The notes beneath the pieces were generated by a model. That model had not been told where the DNA came from. It made no database searches and was given only the letters and a program-made list of their open reading frames with translations. A stretch of 64,000 bases of DNA, taken from Acidobacteriota bacterium (lineage in GTDB: Bacteria > Acidobacteriota > Terriglobia > Acidiferrales > UBA7541). Positions 25,330 to 33,094 of the stretch are shown piece by piece (position 1 is the stretch's first letter; every line of letters starts with the position of its first letter). A program made the position numbers and the translations under genes. The stretch is taken from positions 1-64,000 of the forward strand of contig QHYH01000103.1 in the NCBI GenBank assembly GCA_003223215.1. The letters run 5' to 3'.

Positions 25330-25461
25330 CGAAATCTCCCCTTTACTCCCAAAGCCGCTGTATTGTACGCCCATCTCGTTTTGTTCAGGCCTCGGGGAAA
25401 CGATTGCACATTAGGCTCCCTTTCCGGAAACCAAAGGCCAATTGCCGCTATAATCGCAAGT

Positions 25462-26298
25462 ATGATCGGAGACGGGTCTTTTCCCTTTGGAGAAGCGAGA
25501 TCCGCGATTGTTTTTGAGAACGTGCGCATCGGCTTCGACGAAGGAGAGATTCTGCGTGGGGTGTCGTTTTGCGTGCGCGAGCGAGAGACGGTGGTCTTGC
25601 TCGGCGAAACCGGCACTGGAAAGACCCTTACGCTGAAGATGGCTGCAGGGCTATTGCGGCCGGACAGCGGATGCGTCGACGTGCTGGGCCAGAAAGTATC
25701 GGAAATGGAAGAGAAAGAACTGCTGGCGTTTCGCCGCAAGATCGGCTTCATGTTTCAGGAAGGAGCTCTGTTCGACTCCTTGACGGTTGCGGAGAACGTG
25801 GCGTACCGGCTGCATGAAGACGGCATGCCTGCCGACGAGATCGAGCCGCGCGTGAGAGAAGTGCTGCGCTTTGTGGAGTTGGAGCATACCATGGGCCAGC
25901 TTCCTTCCGACTTGTCGGGCGGCATGAGACGGCGCGTTTCGATCGCGCGGGCCCTGGCAAATCGGCCTCCCATCGTGCTGTATGATTCGCCGACGGCGGG
26001 CCTGGATCCCGTTACCTCGCAGACGATTATCACGCTGATCTTGCGCCTGCGCGACATGTATGGAGTGACCGCCCTACTCGCTACCCACCGGCTTCAGGAT
26101 GGATTCGCGTTGGCGAATTTCCATTTCGACCCTCGTGCGGAACGCGTGGTGGCCAACTCGCGAAATGGGGGTGGGCCGGCGGCAAATGCGGCGCGGACGC
26201 GGTTTCTGGTGTATCGCGAGGGTGAGATTTATTTCGAAGGCGAACCAGAAGAAATTGTGAATACCAAGGATTCCTATCTAAAGCGTTTCTCGGCGTGA
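25462..26298 (+). CDS. mlaF: MlaF-type ABC transporter ATPase
   Basis: ATPase subunit of the Mla/MCE lipid transporter. Walker A is GETGTGKT, the Q-loop lies in FMFQEGALFDSLTV, the signature is LSGGMRRRV and the H-loop is ATHR. Walker B reads IVLYDSPTAGLD: the catalytic Glu after the Asp is Ser, which would slow hydrolysis unless compensated. A ~30-residue insertion after the H-loop (RNGGGPAANAARTRF) precedes the last strand. The ATG at 25462 starts MIGDGSFPFGEA; the much longer open frame upstream is antisense to the peptidase. 44 bp before mlaD. Confidence 0.9.
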   Translation: MIGDGSFPFGEARSAIVFENVRIGFDEGEILRGVSFCVRERETVVLLGETGTGKTLTLKMAAGLLRPDSGCVDVLGQKVSEMEEKELLAFRRKIGFMFQEGALFDSLTVAENVAYRLHEDGMPADEIEPRVREVLRFVELEHTMGQLPSDLSGGMRRRVSIARALANRPPIVLYDSPTAGLDPVTSQTIITLILRLRDMYGVTALLATHRLQDGFALANFHFDPRAERVVANSRNGGGPAANAARTRFLVYREGEIYFEGEPEEIVNTKDSYLKRFSA

Positions 26299-26342
26299 AT
26301 TTGCGATAGTGTTCTTTTTGGAATGCGGGAGGAAAGAACAAA

Positions 26343-27428
26343 ATGCCACAACGAAAACAACTTACCTGGACGGAGTTGCGGGTGGGGCTGTTCGTGATGG
26401 TGGGCTTGTCGGTGCTGGCAGCCGGAATCTTCTACGTGACCGGCCAGGGAATTTTGGGGCCAAAGTACCGGCTGAAGACGTATTTGCCGGAAGTTTCCGG
26501 GCTGGCCAAAGGGGCGACGGTGCGCGTGGACGGCGTGGAAGTGGGAAACGTGGAATCCATCACGTTTTTGCGGCGAACCCCAGGGAGGGCCATGGAGCGG
26601 AACAAAAATATCGAGGTGGTGATGCGCGTGGACCGGAAGTTTCAAGGCGATATTTTGACCGATTCGATAGCAAGCCTGAGGACGGAAGGCCTCCTGGGCA
26701 ACCGTTACGTGACCATTTCGCGCGGAATCACGGGGACCCCGATTCCTGATTCCGGAGTCATTCCGGGAACGGAAGAAAAGGCCATGTCGGAGGTGGTGGA
26801 GAGAAGCGCGGAAGTTCTGGGCAATCTTTCCGCCTTGTCCACCGACGTGCGCGAGCTCGTTGCCGGCGTGCAGGAAGGCCGTGGCTCGCTTGGGAAAATG
26901 CTGACCGATGATCAGGCTTACAACCATTTGAACGGTCTCCTGGCCAAGGGCGATGCGATGATGACCGGCATTCGAGATGGCCAGGGCACGCTTGGAAAAC
27001 TGGTCGCTTCCGATGACCTGTATGCGAAGGTGGATAAAGGGATGGATGACGTGAACGTCATGCTGGCGGATACGCGCGCCGGCAAAGGCACCCTCGGCAA
27101 ATTGCTTTACGACCCGACGCTCTATGACCAGACCAAAGAGGCGGTGGCGAATGGCAACTCCATGCTGAAGGATGCCCGCGCCGGCAAAGGCTCGTTGGGC
27201 AAGTTCATGACCGACGACACTTTATACGACAAGCTGCGCGAAACCAGCGCGAACGTTGCGTCTGCTTCCGCAAAGCTGAATGACAACACCACTACCGCGG
27301 GAAAATTGTTTACCGACCCAAAGCTTTACGACAATCTGGCCGGGTTGACCGGAGACATGCGCCTGCTGATTGGCGACTTTCGGCAAAACCCGAAGAAATT
27401 CCTGCACATCAAGATCACCCTCTTCTAA
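26343..27428 (+). CDS. mlaD: MlaD/MCE-domain lipid-binding protein
   Basis: The periplasmic, membrane-anchored partner of MlaE/F. One N-terminal membrane helix (~12-34) is followed by the MCE domain ~38-120 (YLPEVSGLAKGATVRVDGVEVG...). A long C-terminal part contains five imperfect repeats with the core G-x-G-(S/T)-L-G-K...D..LY (GRGSLGK, GQGTLGK, GKGTLGK, GKGSLGK, TTAGK) at ~35-45-residue spacing, probably forming the elongated helical needle seen in MCE proteins. GGGAGG lies upstream of ATG 26343. Confidence 0.9.
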   Translation: MPQRKQLTWTELRVGLFVMVGLSVLAAGIFYVTGQGILGPKYRLKTYLPEVSGLAKGATVRVDGVEVGNVESITFLRRTPGRAMERNKNIEVVMRVDRKFQGDILTDSIASLRTEGLLGNRYVTISRGITGTPIPDSGVIPGTEEKAMSEVVERSAEVLGNLSALSTDVRELVAGVQEGRGSLGKMLTDDQAYNHLNGLLAKGDAMMTGIRDGQGTLGKLVASDDLYAKVDKGMDDVNVMLADTRAGKGTLGKLLYDPTLYDQTKEAVANGNSMLKDARAGKGSLGKFMTDDTLYDKLRETSANVASASAKLNDNTTTAGKLFTDPKLYDNLAGLTGDMRLLIGDFRQNPKKFLHIKITLF

Positions 27429-27528: not shown

Positions 27529-28290
27529 ATGGAAACGCAGGATGTAGCGCAAAAACCGGCACGGACCGAGCCGGCCAAGTCCACCCTTCCGCAGCCAGGG
27601 CGCCCGGTTCCGAGCCGCGCTTATCCCGGCGCGTTAATCGTGGTGGAGGGCACGGATGGCTCCGGAAAAAGCACGCAGCTGTATTTGCTGAAGCGCTGGC
27701 TGGAAATCGGCGGCTACCGGTTGCACTTCACGGAATGGAATTCCTCGCCGTTGGTGAAGTCGGCGACGCGGCGCGGCAAGCAGCGCCGCTTGCTCACGCC
27801 GACGACTTTTTCGCTGCTGCACGCCGCGGACTTTGCCGACCGCTGCGAGCGCCAAATCATGCCGTTGCTTCAGGGAGACTACCTGGTCCTGGCTGACCGC
27901 TATGTTTACACGGCCTTTGCCCGGGACACGGCCAGAGGCTGCCCGCCGCACTGGCTCAGAAATCTCTATCGCTTTGCTCCTGTCCCGGACATCACGTTCT
28001 ACTTCCGCGCGCCGCTCGACGTGGCCGTGAACCGCATTTTAAGCGGGCGTCCCAAGCTGAAATACTACGAAGCAGGCATGGACCTCGGATTGTCGTACGA
28101 CCGGGCAGAAAGTTTTCGCTTGTTCCAGGCGCGGATTCTAGAGGAATACGACAAAATGGTAGATTCCGACAGTTTCGTGGTGCTGGACGGCACGATGCCG
28201 GTCAATAAATTACAGAAGCAGATGCGCGAAATCGTCGCTTCGAAAATCGATCTCAAGCGTTTTGCTCCCCGCGCTGAGGAAGGGGAGTAA
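27529..28290 (+). CDS. Thymidylate-kinase-like P-loop kinase (copy 1)
   Basis: A 253-residue nucleoside-monophosphate-kinase fold of the thymidylate kinase family. Walker A is EGTDGSGKSTQ at ~43-50, the DR(Y/F) motif is LADRYVYTAFARDTARG, and a lid-like region follows. The substrate region differs from true Tmk: after Walker A it reads FTEWNSSPLVKSATRRGKQRRLL, and the usual RxPGGT motif is absent. The true substrate is therefore open. First gene of the plus-strand run kinase-kinase-ppx-sixA, separated from copy 2 by 2 bp. GAGG precedes ATG 27529. A role as the housekeeping dTMP kinase is possible but not favoured. Confidence 0.75.
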   Translation: METQDVAQKPARTEPAKSTLPQPGRPVPSRAYPGALIVVEGTDGSGKSTQLYLLKRWLEIGGYRLHFTEWNSSPLVKSATRRGKQRRLLTPTTFSLLHAADFADRCERQIMPLLQGDYLVLADRYVYTAFARDTARGCPPHWLRNLYRFAPVPDITFYFRAPLDVAVNRILSGRPKLKYYEAGMDLGLSYDRAESFRLFQARILEEYDKMVDSDSFVVLDGTMPVNKLQKQMREIVASKIDLKRFAPRAEEGE

Positions 28291-28292
28291 GC

Positions 28293-29141
28293 ATGCCCAA
28301 TCAGGAAAAGGAGAAGCCTGCGGCGACGGTTACCGCGACAGAGGCGGTTGCGCCCCCGCCCCCTTCCCCGCCGCCACCAAAACCGGCTCCCGCCTCGGAA
28401 GATAGCGGTACACAGTATTTTTTCGGCGAACCTCTGGTCGGATTCGACCCGAGCGAAATCACCGGCAGCCTGATCGTGATCGAAGGCATGGACGGCTCGG
28501 GACGCTCCACGCAAATCATGCTCTTGCAGGAATGGCTCGAATCGGAAGGCTTCGCCGTGCAGACCAGCGGCTTGCGGCGTTCGAATCTCGTGGGCCGCGA
28601 CATCGACGAGTTGCTCGCCAAAAACGCCGTGACGCGGCTGACATTGGCCTTGATGTATGCGACCGACTTTTTTGATCAAGTGGAACACCGCATCCTTCCC
28701 GCGCTGCGTTCCGGCACCATGGTGCTCGCCGACCGTTACATTTTCACGTTAATTGGCCGCGGCGTGGTGCGTGGAATCAACCGCGACTACATGAGTGGGC
28801 TTTACGCCATGGCGCTGCGGCCACATCTTACTTTTTGGCTGAACGTCCGCCCGGAAACCGCCTTTGGCCGCGAATTCCGCAAGGCGCAGGCCATCAGCTA
28901 CTGGGAAGCCGGGCGCGATATGTCACTTTCGCACGATCTCTATTGGTCCTTCATCCGCTATCAGACTATGATTAAGCGCGAATTCGAGGTGATGGCCAAA
29001 AAGCACAACTTCATCGAGCTCGACGGCGAGGCCAGCGTGCCTGCTGTCAATAAACTCCTGCGCCAGCGGATCGCGGAACAGCTGGGCATTCGCTCGACGA
29101 AGTACACTCCCTCCTCAGCCTTGTCTCACCTCTGGCGGTAG
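28293..29141 (+). CDS. Thymidylate-kinase-like protein (copy 2), altered Walker A
   Basis: Paralogue of the gene before it, with a Pro-rich N-terminal leader (PPPPSPPPPKPAPAS) of ~45 residues. The P-loop reads EGMDGSGRSTQ: the invariant Walker A lysine is arginine. The DR motif (LADRYIFTLIGRG) and the segment SYWEAGRDMSLSHD, equivalent to KYYEAGMDLGLSYD in copy 1, are kept. Either a crippled, possibly regulatory partner of copy 1, or an enzyme that tolerates Arg. GGGGAG before ATG 28293; the next gene begins within 10 bp of its stop, so the run is probably one transcript. Confidence 0.72.
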   Translation: MPNQEKEKPAATVTATEAVAPPPPSPPPPKPAPASEDSGTQYFFGEPLVGFDPSEITGSLIVIEGMDGSGRSTQIMLLQEWLESEGFAVQTSGLRRSNLVGRDIDELLAKNAVTRLTLALMYATDFFDQVEHRILPALRSGTMVLADRYIFTLIGRGVVRGINRDYMSGLYAMALRPHLTFWLNVRPETAFGREFRKAQAISYWEAGRDMSLSHDLYWSFIRYQTMIKREFEVMAKKHNFIELDGEASVPAVNKLLRQRIAEQLGIRSTKYTPSSALSHLWR

Positions 29142-29149
29142 CATTGCCG

Positions 29150-30745
29150 ATGCCTGAGCCGATCCACATCGCGGCGATCGACGCCGGCTCCAACGCCGTG
29201 CGCCTTTCGGTGGCGCGCGCCCATTCCGCTTTGGACATCGAACCGCTGCAATCGGAGCGCTACCCGCTGCGGTTGGGTGAGAGTGTTTTTCTTCGACAGC
29301 ACTTCAGTAAGGATGTTTTCAAGAAGGCCGCAAAAGCGTTCCGCCATTTTCACGACATCATGGACGAATTCGGAGTGGCGCGGTATCGAGCAGTGGCGAC
29401 CAGCGCTACGCGAGAGGCGGAAAATCGCGACGCGTTTGTGCGCGCGATCAAGCGAAAATCCGGAGTTCTTCTGGAAGTAATCAGCGCAGCGGAAGAGTCC
29501 CGTCTCGGCCGGGAGGCCGTGCTGGCGGCCTTGGGGCCTGAAGCCGCTCCGCGCTGTATTGTCGATTTGGGCGGCGGAAGCCTGGAGATCAGCATCCTCC
29601 GAGATCACAACGTGGAACAAAGCGCTCAGTTGCCGGTGGGCACGGTTCGGCTCATGACCACTTTGGATTTGCCCGGTGTGATTCGTCCTGCGCAAAGGGA
29701 ACAGGTACATAAATACGTGCGCGCCTTGCTCGAGTCAAAACTCGTGCCGCGGCCCAACCTGGGAGAAGGGATCGCCGTGGCGCTGGGCGGCAACGCCGAA
29801 ACGCTGGCTGACATCGCCCCGGGCGAGCGAGTGCACGGCTTACAGACGATCGAGCTCTCCCTGTTGCGGGAGCGTTTGCCCGACATGCTCGAGCGCGACG
29901 TGCACGATCGCATGAAGACTTATGGGGTGCGCCGAGACCGCGCCGACGTGATGGGCATCGCCGCCATTATTTTTGTCAACCTCGGACGCTACCTGAATCT
30001 GCGGCTCTTTGCCGTCCCGGGGGTCGGCGTGCGCGAGGGGCTTCTGCAGGGAATCGCGCACGAAACGTTCTCGCGCAAAGAGCCGCACCGCTACAGCGGC
30101 GCCGCGCGTCAGTTGCTCGTGGGGACGCGTAGCTTTGCTCGCAGGCTCGAATACGATCAGCGGCACGCGGAGCACGTGCGCGAGTTGTGTCTTCAGCTCT
30201 TTGACCAGCTGCAGCCGGTACACCGTTTACCGCCGCAAACGCGCGTGCTTCTCGAAGCGGGAGCGTTGCTGCATGATGCCGGACACATGATCAGCCACCG
30301 TGGACATCACAAACACGGAGAATACCTGGTTTTGAACGGCGATATTCCCGCGCTGGGGGGCCGCGAACGCGCCATCGTCGCCGGTCTGGTGCGCTATCAC
30401 AACCGCAAGTCGGAACCTGCTGGACACCACACCGCGTATTCCTCCCTGGATGACGCCGATAAGCCCATCCTGCGAAGGCTGGCCTCGATTTTGCGGATTG
30501 CCGAGAGTCTCGATCACTCGCACCGCCAGCGCATCGTGAAAATTCGCGCTTCGTTTCAGCGCGGGGCCGTTGGCTTGGAAGTGCAGGCGCGCGGCGATCC
30601 CGGCGAAGATTTGCGCGACGCCGGGCGCAGTGCGGAATGGTTTGAAAAAGAATGTCACGTCAAGGTTTACACGCGGCGGGCTCCCGGCATTATGAATCGA
30701 ATCCGGCGTTTGTTCCGCCCATCGTCGGCGTTGAGTGATTCGTGA
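29150..30745 (+). CDS. ppx: Ppx/GppA-type phosphatase with C-terminal HD domain
   Basis: Exopolyphosphatase/guanosine-pentaphosphate phosphatase family. An ASKHA fold in two halves is recognised by DAGSNAVRLSV (~9) and DLGGGSLEI (~140). It is followed by an HD-type domain with LLHDAGHMISHRGHHKHGEYLV (~375) and LVRYHNR. Ppx releases phosphate from the ends of polyphosphate; the GppA activity acts on pppGpp. About 532 residues, the length of the E. coli-type long form. ATG 29150 (a TTG at 29144 adds two residues). Operon with the kinase pair and sixA. Confidence 0.88.
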   Translation: MPEPIHIAAIDAGSNAVRLSVARAHSALDIEPLQSERYPLRLGESVFLRQHFSKDVFKKAAKAFRHFHDIMDEFGVARYRAVATSATREAENRDAFVRAIKRKSGVLLEVISAAEESRLGREAVLAALGPEAAPRCIVDLGGGSLEISILRDHNVEQSAQLPVGTVRLMTTLDLPGVIRPAQREQVHKYVRALLESKLVPRPNLGEGIAVALGGNAETLADIAPGERVHGLQTIELSLLRERLPDMLERDVHDRMKTYGVRRDRADVMGIAAIIFVNLGRYLNLRLFAVPGVGVREGLLQGIAHETFSRKEPHRYSGAARQLLVGTRSFARRLEYDQRHAEHVRELCLQLFDQLQPVHRLPPQTRVLLEAGALLHDAGHMISHRGHHKHGEYLVLNGDIPALGGRERAIVAGLVRYHNRKSEPAGHHTAYSSLDDADKPILRRLASILRIAESLDHSHRQRIVKIRASFQRGAVGLEVQARGDPGEDLRDAGRSAEWFEKECHVKVYTRRAPGIMNRIRRLFRPSSALSDS

Positions 30746-30783
30746 ACGACTCCATGGGTCGTGGAAAACGTTAGGAGAAAAGG

Positions 30784-31284
30784 ATGCAGCTCTACATCGT
30801 TCGCCATGGCATCGCCATCGATCGGGAAGACCCGAAATGCCCTCCCGATCCGGAAAGGTATTTGAGCGAAGAAGGTGTCGAGAAAACGAAGGCAGTTGCG
30901 AAGGGTCTGGCTTCCCTTAGGGTAGCGCCCGGCTTGTTCGTCACCAGCCCTTACACGCGCGCGGTACAAACGGCGGAAATTTTTGCAGACGCCTTGGATT
31001 ACTCCAAGCAGAAAATCCGGCGAAGCGAGTTGCTGCTACCCGGCGCCGAGCCCACGCTGCTTTTCCGCGAACTCGCACGGGACAAGCAGGCTTCTTCGAT
31101 TTTTTTGTTTGGTCACGCGCCGCATCTTGACGATGTGATCGCCACCGCTTTGGGCTCGAAGAAGCGCGTAACGACTCTGAAAAAAGCAGGCGTTGCCCTC
31201 GTTGAGTTGAAACGCATTTCGCCTCCCGCCGGCATTCTCGCCTGGCTTGCTACTCCCAAAATGTTGCGGCGAGCCGGGAACTAG
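30784..31284 (+). CDS. sixA: SixA-like histidine phosphatase
   Basis: A 166-residue branch-1 histidine phosphatase: RHG at 7-9 (LYIVRHGIAID), Arg in the PYTRAVQTAEI segment, and the second catalytic His in FGHAPHLDDV. SixA acts on phospho-His of signalling proteins such as ArcB or PTS Npr; family relatives act on small phosphorylated molecules. Next to ppx and the convergent CHAD gene it may belong to phosphate/polyphosphate metabolism. AGGAGAAAAGG precedes ATG 30784. Convergent with the CHAD gene, 59 bp between stops. Confidence 0.85.
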   Translation: MQLYIVRHGIAIDREDPKCPPDPERYLSEEGVEKTKAVAKGLASLRVAPGLFVTSPYTRAVQTAEIFADALDYSKQKIRRSELLLPGAEPTLLFRELARDKQASSIFLFGHAPHLDDVIATALGSKKRVTTLKKAGVALVELKRISPPAGILAWLATPKMLRRAGN

Positions 31285-31343
31285 ACCATGGGCCTGCGAC
31301 TTGCTTTGGGTTCCCAAGGTGGTTGACTAACGCTCCGGTTTCA

Positions 31344-32861
31344 CTAGTCGGACGCCACAGAAAATGGGGGCGTTTGCGGAGCCGGCAAAGCGACGACTTT
31401 CCCCGCCTTGACCACGGGCTTCAGAATCAGAGGCCTGCCCAGATATTCTTCGAGCAGATGCTTGCCGGCCGCGATGCGCGCGGCGGTGTCCACGTCGTCC
31501 GCCAATCCTCGCACCCGAAGCACGATGGTTTCTGCGGACTTGTCCGCATGGAGCCCCGCACCGCTTTCCACCCCGCATTTGCGCAGCGCAAGGGCCAAAC
31601 GCAAAACGCCGGCCAGTGCGCGAACGCGATTCTGCCGCTCTGTAGATAATTTGGAAAACGGCCCGCTCTTGTCAGATGGTTCTGTGCCCCGGTGATAACG
31701 GACCACCATTGCGAGCAACTCCCATTCCTCGTTGTTCCACCCGGGCGGGAGCGGAAGGCCAAGGATAAACTTCCGCGCCGCCTTCTGCGGTGATCGATCC
31801 GCGTCGGCATTTCCGACACCGTGCAGTCGGGCCGCGGTCAACAGGATGCGATCGAGCGTCGGCTCGCAAAAGGCGGGACCGGCATCCGCTCGTTTCAAGG
31901 CTTGGTAAACCGCCACGGCAATGCGGGAAACCTGTGAGGTGCGGCTCACATCGGGATCGACGGCCCGCGCCGTGGCGCGCAGTCGGGCTTCTGCGGCCGC
32001 CTCGACACGGCCATTCGTGGGCAAGCCAGCACGCCACAAATTCCAAAAGCTGGTCTTCCCGAGCGTGAGTTGCCGATACGTTCGAATGCAGTGTTGGCGT
32101 TCCTGGCCAATCGTCTCCATCCACACGTTCAGGGAATCTTCCGTCTCCACGAAATCCGATTTTTTGACGATGTCCAGCAGCACGTCGAGGTCGTGCACTT
32201 CTCCCAGCAAATCCTGGACGCGCTTCAAATTCTCGCTCCAAAGCGCGTAACGCTCCGGTAGCAGGCTCTCAACCGTGTAGCGGAAGCGTTTCAGGCCGAT
32301 TCGCAGCGCATGCCATGGCTTCGGTTTCTCCGTGCACAGGGCTTTTGCATGAAGTTCCTTTGCGGCTTCGAATCGTTCAAGCGCCATGCACTCCGCGGCC
32401 AGACTACCCGCAGGCACCAGCCGGCTGCGCTGCCGGAGCACGCGTGCCATTCTTCTCCACGACCTTTGATCGAATTTGGCGACGATGCGTACCGCTGCTT
32501 CCCTCAGCGCGGGCTCCTTGGACTCAAACGAAGCTTGCAAATGCGCGCGGACGGGATCGTTTTCAGGCCCGAGCTTCTTGACCCACTCGTTCATCACCTG
32601 GGCATCGCGCAGTGCGCCCAAAGTGCGGAAAAGCTTGCGCGCCGCCTTGCGCATCGCAGGCCAGGCCGGATCGGGATCGATTTCTTCCATGGCTACAGCG
32701 ACCGAGCGGCACCGCCGGATGGCCACGCGGAGGTCTTTGACCGCGTCCATCTTAGGCGACGAGCGCACAGAGTCCAGTGCCTTCAGCACTTGGTCCATCC
32801 AGAAAGGCAGATCGCGGCGCTCTAGGTGGGCCCCCGTGGAAAGGGGAGTTACCGTGGACAC
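31344..32861 (-). CDS. CHAD-domain protein with degenerate HD-like C-terminus
   Basis: Residues ~15-300 are a CHAD domain: conserved basic patches VKDLRVAIRRCRS, KLFRTLGALRDAQVM, ALRIGLKRFRYTVE and LGEVHDLDVL. CHAD domains are histidine/arginine-rich helical bundles shown to bind polyphosphate. Residues ~330-490 align by eye with the C-terminal HD region of the Ppx gene next door: AARLHGVGNADADRSPQKA against ALLHDAGHMISHRGHHKHG, and LAMVVRYHRGTEP against VAGLVRYHNRKSEP. Here HD is HG and the metal histidines are missing, so this part is probably non-catalytic. GTG start at 32861 with TGAGG six bases upstream. Confidence 0.83.
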   Translation of the reverse strand: MSTVTPLSTGAHLERRDLPFWMDQVLKALDSVRSSPKMDAVKDLRVAIRRCRSVAVAMEEIDPDPAWPAMRKAARKLFRTLGALRDAQVMNEWVKKLGPENDPVRAHLQASFESKEPALREAAVRIVAKFDQRSWRRMARVLRQRSRLVPAGSLAAECMALERFEAAKELHAKALCTEKPKPWHALRIGLKRFRYTVESLLPERYALWSENLKRVQDLLGEVHDLDVLLDIVKKSDFVETEDSLNVWMETIGQERQHCIRTYRQLTLGKTSFWNLWRAGLPTNGRVEAAAEARLRATARAVDPDVSRTSQVSRIAVAVYQALKRADAGPAFCEPTLDRILLTAARLHGVGNADADRSPQKAARKFILGLPLPPGWNNEEWELLAMVVRYHRGTEPSDKSGPFSKLSTERQNRVRALAGVLRLALALRKCGVESGAGLHADKSAETIVLRVRGLADDVDTAARIAAGKHLLEEYLGRPLILKPVVKAGKVVALPAPQTPPFSVASD

Positions 32862-33094
32862 AGCTAGCCTCAAAGTGTCCGCCCGGACGTTTCCCTTGGT
32901 AGTGAAAACCCCTGTCGGGCGGGTAACATAGAGTAGCTCCTCGAGAACCTATACGTCCAGCCAGGCTGTGAAAACTTTGTGGAAATGTTGATAGAAATTT
33001 GGAAAACCGAAACGATAATCCCTTCCCTGGCGTTCCCTGTCCCGCGGGTTTTCTTGAGTGCCGCCTGTGGGCGTGCTGTCTTTTGACGGTCCAC

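Follow-up and report, generated by a model that had tools for sequence, protein, structure and literature searches.

The five genes of the locus

The locus described here is a group of five genes in a stretch of 64,000 nucleotides (called the window; contig QHYH01000103.1 of assembly GCA_003223215.1, positions 1 to 64,000 of the forward strand) from an Acidobacteriota bacterium of the Acidiferrales. The first gene, k1 (27529-28290, plus strand), codes for a P-loop kinase of the thymidylate kinase (TMK) fold whose best match in the PDB is ST1543 of S. tokodaii, and which is proposed below to be a catalytic polyphosphate kinase. It is followed on the same strand by k2 (28293-29141), a P-loop kinase paralogue in which the Walker A lysine is replaced by an arginine (GMDGSGRST) and which could be a non-classical partner subunit of k1. 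Next come a gene for a Ppx/GppA-type exopolyphosphatase with a C-terminal domain III/HD (29144-30745, plus strand; TTG start with an in-frame ATG at 29150) and a gene for a SixA-like phosphohistidine phosphatase (30784-31284, plus strand). The fifth gene (31344-32873, minus strand, TTG start) is convergent with these four and codes for a CHAD protein fused to a Ppx-domain-III-like region. This layout of four packed plus-strand genes and a convergent CHAD gene had been described in an earlier note on this DNA, and it is in agreement with Pfam and with the list of open reading frames, in which the gaps between the plus-strand genes are 2, 2 and 38 bases. The genes are located as in the note, except that the end given there, 32861, falls 12 bases inside the CHAD gene, which extends to 32873.

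The identity of the five products was established by profile searches. Both kinases score above the cut-off of the Pfam family Thymidylate_kin (PF02223; 68.9 bits for k1 and 71.8 bits for k2). The Ppx protein matches Ppx-GppA (PF02541, 154.8 bits for a cut-off of 27), Ppx-GppA_III (PF21447, 90.7) and HD (PF01966, 25.6), and remains under the cut-off of TIGR03706 (197.5 bits, cut-off 307). The SixA-like protein matches His_Phos_1 (PF00300, 38.6) and passes the NCBIfam sixA model TIGR00249 (76.2, cut-off 74.5). The CHAD protein matches CHAD (PF05235, 105.4 for a cut-off of 25.6) and Ppx-GppA_III (PF21447, 40.6 bits). In the Ppx-domain-III-like region of the latter protein the HD dyad appears, by eye in the translation, as His-Gly, so that this region may represent a catalytically inactive copy of the C-terminal domain of Ppx.

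The five-gene set, together with an upstream MlaD gene, was found in unchanged order in both other members of the genus fetched at depth (loci L102 and L103), and the arrangement of these genes is therefore not due to chance. In the genus as a whole, k1 or k2 was found in 18 of the 19 members; k1 is cut by the contig end in G004, and G009 (99% complete) carries neither gene.

Fold and substrate site of k1 and k2

The motifs of k1 are GTDGSGKSTQ (Walker A), EWNSS, LLHAADFADR, DRYVYTAFARD and YYEAGMD. Its predicted structure is a TMK fold with a mean predicted local distance difference test score (pLDDT) of 92.8, and the top structural match of the model is ST1543 (Z 26.9, root-mean-square deviation (rmsd) 1.6, 205 aligned residues); the T. 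thermophilus TMK 5x7j is matched with Z 24.0, rmsd 1.8 and 188 aligned residues. By phmmer, k1 matched ST1543 (2plr) with an E-value of 4.7e-59 and the best of the remaining TMKs with 1.2e-13. ST1543 (PDB 2plr, 4nzy, 4rzx and 5h70) shares 44-46% identity (Z 26.2-26.9) and the same motifs with k1 and belongs to the k1 family. The models PF02503 (PPK1) and PF03976 (PPK2) of the polyphosphate kinases did not match k1 or k2 at an E-value of 0.1, and no NCBIfam model named for a polyphosphate kinase matched any of 53 k1 proteins scanned (E 1e-5).

The residues of the substrate site were compared in 112 k1, 111 k2 and 20 TMK sequences, numbered according to the window k1; the k2 of locus L068, of fewer than 150 residues, was left out of this comparison and of the tree described below. 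The Walker lysine, Lys47, is kept in all 112 k1 proteins. Trp70 (112 of 112), Asn71 (110), Ser72 (112) and Ser73 (111) of k1 occupy positions at which TMK has mostly E-P-G-G (17, 20, 14 and 15 of the 20, respectively). His98, found in 111/112 k1, is equivalent to a Phe or Tyr in 19 of the 20 TMKs, and Phe102 (111/112) to an Arg in all of them. From known TMK structures, we take these two positions to be those of the aromatic residue stacking on the base and of the arginine contacting it. Arg132 and Asp133, each present in 112/112 k1, stand for the Tyr and Gln of TMK (19/20 each). Furthermore, Lys84, Arg105, Arg174 and Arg233 are invariant in the 112 k1 proteins and variable in TMK, position 105 being a His in 13/20. 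The fold, the Walker A and the DR motif are therefore common to k1 and thymidylate kinase (PF02223, TIGR00041), whereas k1 has other residues in place of the RxPGGT motif, the base-site Arg, the aromatic residue and the Tyr-Gln pair (here Arg-Asp). The site for deoxythymidine monophosphate (dTMP) that characterizes a thymidylate kinase (RxPGGT, aromatic stacker, base-contacting Arg) is thus not found in k1. With the TMK base-site residues lost and basic residues invariant in k1, the comparison suggests an acceptor other than dTMP and a new site of strongly basic character.

The lack of RxPGGT in both kinases, pointed out in the earlier note, was confirmed, k1 reading TEWNSS and k2 SGLRRS. Its view that they are not ordinary TMKs was borne out by the base-site Arg to Phe change in 111/112 k1, by WNSS in place of RxPGGT and by a separate TMK gene in the host genome, an 8.8 Mb draft. 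This TMK gene (G000:C99:44998-45507, locus L001) is followed by a holB-like gene. All 16 other k1 genomes scanned, which were chosen by hand, also contain another Thymidylate_kin match besides the pair. A duplication of an ordinary TMK was rejected in view of the separate TMK and the changed substrate site. The REPGGT motif is missing from the host TMK itself (which reads SGFPQYVSWFG); this protein perhaps belongs to a different TMK subtype. A fourth, weak match to Thymidylate_kin is present at G000:C14:104272-104433 (L004; 22.6 bits, and 36.1 with its neighbours in frame).

The predicted structure of k2 is also a TMK fold (mean pLDDT 86.2) with ST1543 as top match (Z 26.5, rmsd 1.9, 203 aligned residues). 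The window k2 scores 82.0 bits against the NCBIfam dTMP kinase model TIGR00041, just below the cut-off of 83.25, and 15.2 bits against TIGR03708, far below 547.65. At the position of Lys47, k2 carries an Arg in 99 of the 111 sequences, a Lys in 7 and a Leu or Val in 5, and a Tyr occupies the position of His98 in 111/111. The seven k2 proteins that retain the Lys (L114, L123, L141, L149, L159, L165 and L180) also keep the DR motif and YTAxxRD; they come from Gastranaerophilales records and one record titled Clostridiaceae, and none of their loci has Ppx, SixA or CHAD in the vicinity. The five with a Leu or Val at the Walker Lys (L093, L096, L097, L098 and L101) are degenerate and have neither P-loop nor DR motif; their genomes (G140, G090, G131, G189 and G026) all contain PPK1 except G140, which also carries an ordinary pair (L092). 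In Sulfolobus, k2 is eroded as well, reading ADGYANTLKAW versus SDRYIYTAYAR in its k1. These results suggest that in most lineages k2 has moved away from the classical catalysis of a P-loop and was nevertheless retained. The earlier note had made no distinction between the two kinase paralogues, which are not equivalent: one is classical and the other has a widely conserved Walker A Lys to Arg change.

Distribution and neighbourhood of the k1-k2 pair

The phylum was sampled with 198 genomes of at least 80% completeness, many of them draft assemblies, in which k1 was called at an E-value below 1e-75. It was present in 34 of the 198, with a second kinase match beside it in 30; in three of the four remaining carriers the neighbour of k1 is a degenerate k2. 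When named genomes were scanned with an archaeal sequence as query, at least 545 relatives were confirmed, of which the best 80 were kept; since these are ranked by closeness to the archaeal query, no prevalence can be read from the scan. The archaeal record titles include Sulfolobus, Thermoplasmata, Nitrososphaerales, Nitrosopumilales and Methanoliparum, and the bacterial ones include Verrucomicrobia, Gastranaerophilales, Anaerolineae, planctomycetes, Nitrospirae, Deltaproteobacteria, Gemmatimonadetes, Eisenbacteria and Acidobacteria. An oddity of one genus was ruled out by the presence of the pair in records of many phyla.

After removal of four near-duplicates (L081, L124, L131 and L166) and of a TMK (L104), 115 non-redundant loci remained, drawn from many phyla of both bacteria and archaea, and 112 of them hold k1 and k2 in tandem. 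No k2 was seen in L095, k2 lies about 3 kb upstream with Ppx in between in L157, and in L154 k1 stops 2 bases short of the contig end. In a FastTree phylogeny of 243 sequences, 106 of the 111 k2 proteins form one exclusive clade and 98 of the 112 k1 proteins another, the 20 TMKs being separate. The five k2 outside the k2 clade are the degenerate ones, and of the 14 k1 outside the k1 clade, the ten that were named come from loci of the degenerate-k2 group and of the Gastranaerophilales type. The distances within k1 and within k2 co-vary (r 0.89, versus 0.21 for the best of 500 permutations), which is the behaviour expected of jointly inherited genes. The tandem is an old unit.

Within about 10 kb of the pair, Ppx was detected in 58, CHAD in 50 and SixA in 37 of the 115 loci. 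At least one of the three was present in 74 loci, at least two in 46 and all three in 25 (L105 included). Two matches in the CHAD count are weak, namely 17 bits at the Sulfolobus locus (no Pfam match at 0.001) and 27 bits at L148; they do not affect the count of 74, as both loci have Ppx. The same profiles gave no match at 20 TMK loci from the same phylum. For a second control, 16 k1 carriers belonging to other groups were hand-picked after the k1-locus neighbourhoods had been surveyed; their TMK loci were without Ppx, SixA or CHAD (0/16), and their k1 loci had at least one of the three in 15/16. A chance neighbourhood was ruled out by these two sets of TMK loci. PPK2 was found in the fetched flanks of 5/115 k1 loci and in none of the 20 and 16 TMK controls. 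The order and strand of the Ppx, SixA and CHAD genes differ across lineages (SixA-Ppx-k1-k2 in Sulfolobus), and the association is therefore not one frozen operon. The conservation of the neighbourhood and the existence of a separate TMK leave standing the idea of a polyphosphate-linked module put forward in the earlier note, which had named a neighbourhood absent from other genomes, or a k1 that is the only tmk of its genome and works on dTMP, as the findings that would speak against it.

Other genes were seen near the pair. A ROK-family sugar-kinase gene lies near 10 loci, mostly from Verrucomicrobia records (L107, L115, L127, L134, L145, L147, L150, L162, L171 and L181), and near none of the 20 and 16 control loci; the ROK family includes polyphosphate glucokinases, which would fit such a position. 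A calcineurin-like metallophosphoesterase gene, equally absent from both controls (0/20 and 0/16), is near 13 loci (L066, L073, L074, L078, L080, L084, L085, L087, L088, L090, L094, L145 and L179). A transporter permease near 5 loci could not be distinguished from the background (1/20 controls). The all-against-all clustering of neighbours that brought out these three kinds of gene was dominated by antisense frames.

Phyletic pattern and proposed function

The distribution of k1 was compared with that of the known polyphosphate kinases in the 198 genomes of the phylum. PPK1 is present in 7/34 k1 carriers versus 103/164 other genomes (Fisher p 7e-6). Counted by genus, it occurs in 7/25 k1-carrying genera versus 56/98 others (p 0.013); the genus counts were tallied by hand, and relatedness enters the tests only through this collapse to genera. 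Four families (f31, f36, f39 and f53) contain both members with k1 only and members with PPK1 only. PPK2, for which six matches with E-values from 1e-3 to 1e-6 were set aside as weak, is found in 20 of the 27 k1-only genomes, in 90 of the 103 PPK1-only genomes and in only 5 of the 61 with neither; by genus, 14/18 k1-only genera have it versus 1/42 with neither. Four of the five PPK2 genomes with neither PPK1 nor k1 belong to a genus in which another member has k1. Overall, PPK2 is weakly commoner in k1 carriers (26/34 versus 95/164, p 0.053). Because PPK2 accompanies k1-only genomes so much more often than genomes with neither enzyme, k1 appears to track polymer supply. If PPK2 marks the use of polyphosphate, these counts suggest that k1 is a second marker of its supply, able to replace PPK1. 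Outside records with Acidobacteria titles, 50 k1 genomes, taken from the best 80 loci with similar lineages thinned by hand and without matched non-carriers, contained PPK1 in 11 cases and PPK2 in 30. In the phylum of a Verrucomicrobia-titled genome, k1 was found in only 1/145 genomes at E 1e-60, so that the pattern of PPK1 and k1 could not be replicated there.

The polyphosphate link made in the earlier note is thus supported by the Ppx, SixA and CHAD neighbourhood, which was seen at 74 of the 115 loci, and by the PPK1/PPK2 pattern. We consider it likely that k1 acts on polyphosphate as a supplier of the polymer. As the catalytic member, k1 would move phosphate between a nucleotide (ATP/ADP) bound at its P-loop and the terminus of a polyphosphate chain, the chain being gripped by the invariant basic residues at the place where TMK holds dTMP. 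With less confidence than for this chemistry, k2 is proposed to form a heteromer with k1, most likely a TMK-type dimer in which it could serve structure, polyphosphate binding or regulation. Ppx would hydrolyse the polymer, CHAD would bind it and may sense it, as the earlier note proposed, and SixA would dephosphorylate a histidine or some related substrate. The pair would replace PPK1 in most relatives, and in the host genome it would operate alongside PPK1 and PPK2. A broader proposal can be made tentatively, and we hold it to be somewhat doubtful in its entirety: an ancient and widespread second polyphosphate-synthesising system of Bacteria and Archaea, in which an obligate heteromer of k1 and a Walker-A-Arg or degenerate pseudokinase, k2, replaces PPK1; k2 would bind polyphosphate or have a regulatory role, and SixA would reset a phosphohistidine, perhaps the conserved His of k1 at the site where TMK holds the base. 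The most fitting place for the module is among the TMK-related polyphosphate kinases, as a widespread variant whose partner subunit is unusual.

Among the alternatives, k1 and k2 could be nucleotide kinases which, like PPK2, consume polyphosphate to regenerate nucleoside di- or triphosphates and are not the main makers of the polymer. The fold is compatible with such a role: the relation of k1 to PPK2 is taken from PMC4748334, where the reported Dali search with F. tularensis PPK2 gives ST1543 (2PLR, 4NZY; Z about 11.6) as the nearest structure after the PPK2s and the text also names an S. aureus TMK, and where PPK2 kinetics are said to favour ATP synthesis from polyphosphate. PPK2 chains were not among the first 50 structural matches listed for the k1 or k2 model, which has no bearing either way. 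The pair also coexists with PPK1 in 7/34 carriers. However, 27 of these 34 genomes are without PPK1, and 20 of the 27 have PPK2, versus 5/61 genomes with neither; this argument is not decisive, because PPK2 might itself supply polyphosphate. Taken together, a consuming role is unlikely.

That k1 is a genuine dTMP kinase, or a broad nucleoside monophosphate kinase merely situated among polyphosphate genes, is in our opinion improbable. The window k1 does score above the TIGR00041 cut-off, and the ST1543 structures were deposited as dTMP kinase, but the host has a separate TMK, 16/16 other k1 genomes have a further Thymidylate_kin match, the base-site Arg and Phe/Tyr have become Phe and His in 111/112 k1, and Ppx, SixA or CHAD accompany the pair at 74/115 loci versus 0/20 and 0/16 TMK loci. 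Least probable, a phosphorylation by the pair of a protein histidine or of a small phosphate-rich signal, reversed by SixA and with CHAD and Ppx downstream, would fit the SixA genes of 37/115 loci and the near-invariant His (111/112) that in k1 takes the place of the aromatic base-site residue of TMK, but the PPK1/PPK2 pattern indicates the polymer, and Ppx (58/115) and CHAD (50/115, two weak) are commoner neighbours than SixA.

Several observations weigh against k1 as a polyphosphate supplier. Seven of the 34 k1 carriers have PPK1 and seven of the 27 k1-only genomes are without PPK2. In the genus of the host, PPK1 is present in 7/19 members, although the pair is steadier there (k1 or k2 in 18/19). 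The host itself has PPK1 as a separate gene at C259 and PPK2 matches at C2 and C182, by which the pair was ruled out as its only polyphosphate enzyme; both tmk (at C99) and ppk, which the earlier note had advised looking for, are therefore present elsewhere in this genome. The NCBIfam dTMP kinase equivalog TIGR00041 accepts the window k1 (87.9 versus 83.25 bits) and matches 53/53 k1 proteins scanned, and ST1543 was both solved and deposited as a dTMP kinase. Concerning the neighbourhood, 41/115 loci, some on short contigs and including all those of Gastranaerophilales, have no Ppx, SixA or CHAD nearby. Of the 20 phylum TMK control loci (0/20), 3 are from k1-carrying genomes and 17 from genomes without k1, and the neighbour profiles, for which the window supplied the seeds, were trained partly on k1 loci, with stretches of different lengths. 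We know of no activity for any bacterial k1 or k2. The family 3 polyphosphate kinase of S. acidocaldarius is reportedly related to thymidylate kinases, and k1 may be its counterpart.

Related systems have been described in archaea. PMC11677633 and PMC13318637 cite work in which a distinct, "family 3" polyphosphate kinase of Sulfolobus acidocaldarius was characterised (Hofmann et al., bioRxiv 2024; J Biol Chem 2026, 302:111283), and PMC7831078 states that no bacterial-type polyphosphate kinase had been identified in Sulfolobales. S. acidocaldarius was not among the control genomes matching the PPK1 or PPK2 models. The crenarchaeal family 3 enzyme is reported as distinct from known polyphosphate kinases, and the Sulfolobus k1 locus contains SixA and Ppx in front of k1 and k2. 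PMC10892726 describes a gene group of biomining archaea that includes SixA, PPX, a "dTMP kinase" and CHAD, the same set by name; in that passage the second kinase is unnamed and the kinase is undiscussed. The statement of the earlier note that no described pathway has this exact set thus has to be revised, such a gene group having been named and the archaeal family 3 kinase having been characterised. A parallel to the k1/k2 pairing is offered by class II PPK2, in which, according to a passage of PMC8776046, an inactive domain can be paired with an active one, PPK2 and TMK sharing a P-loop ancestor; there the domains are fused, whereas k1 and k2 are separate genes and belong to PF02223, not PF03976. 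A search limited to open-licence papers found no account of a bacterial k1-k2 pair.

Should k1 prove to be the bacterial equivalent of the archaeal family 3 kinase, it would represent a third widespread enzyme family of prokaryotic polyphosphate synthesis. Many genomes lacking PPK1 carry polyphosphate-using genes, and k1-k2 is a candidate source of the polymer for them, uncultured lineages included. The k1 and k2 genes, being matched by standard dTMP kinase models, are probably misnamed. The finding is more general than the earlier note supposed, since the pair recurs across many bacterial and archaeal groups, and it highlights a kinase/pseudokinase pair that conserves its Walker A lysine change over most of its range.

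Finally, the flanks of the five genes were inspected in the window. An ABC-transporter ATPase-like gene, recognized by eye, and an MlaD-type gene occupy 25400-27428, finishing some 100 bases before the start of k1; in the two loci of the same genus, L102 and L103, MlaD also adjoins k1, and its profile matched 0/38 of the other regions fetched by then. On the other side, a gene at 36472-38064 matches DUF4382 above the cut-off and shows a sub-threshold match to a carboxypeptidase-regulatory-like domain.

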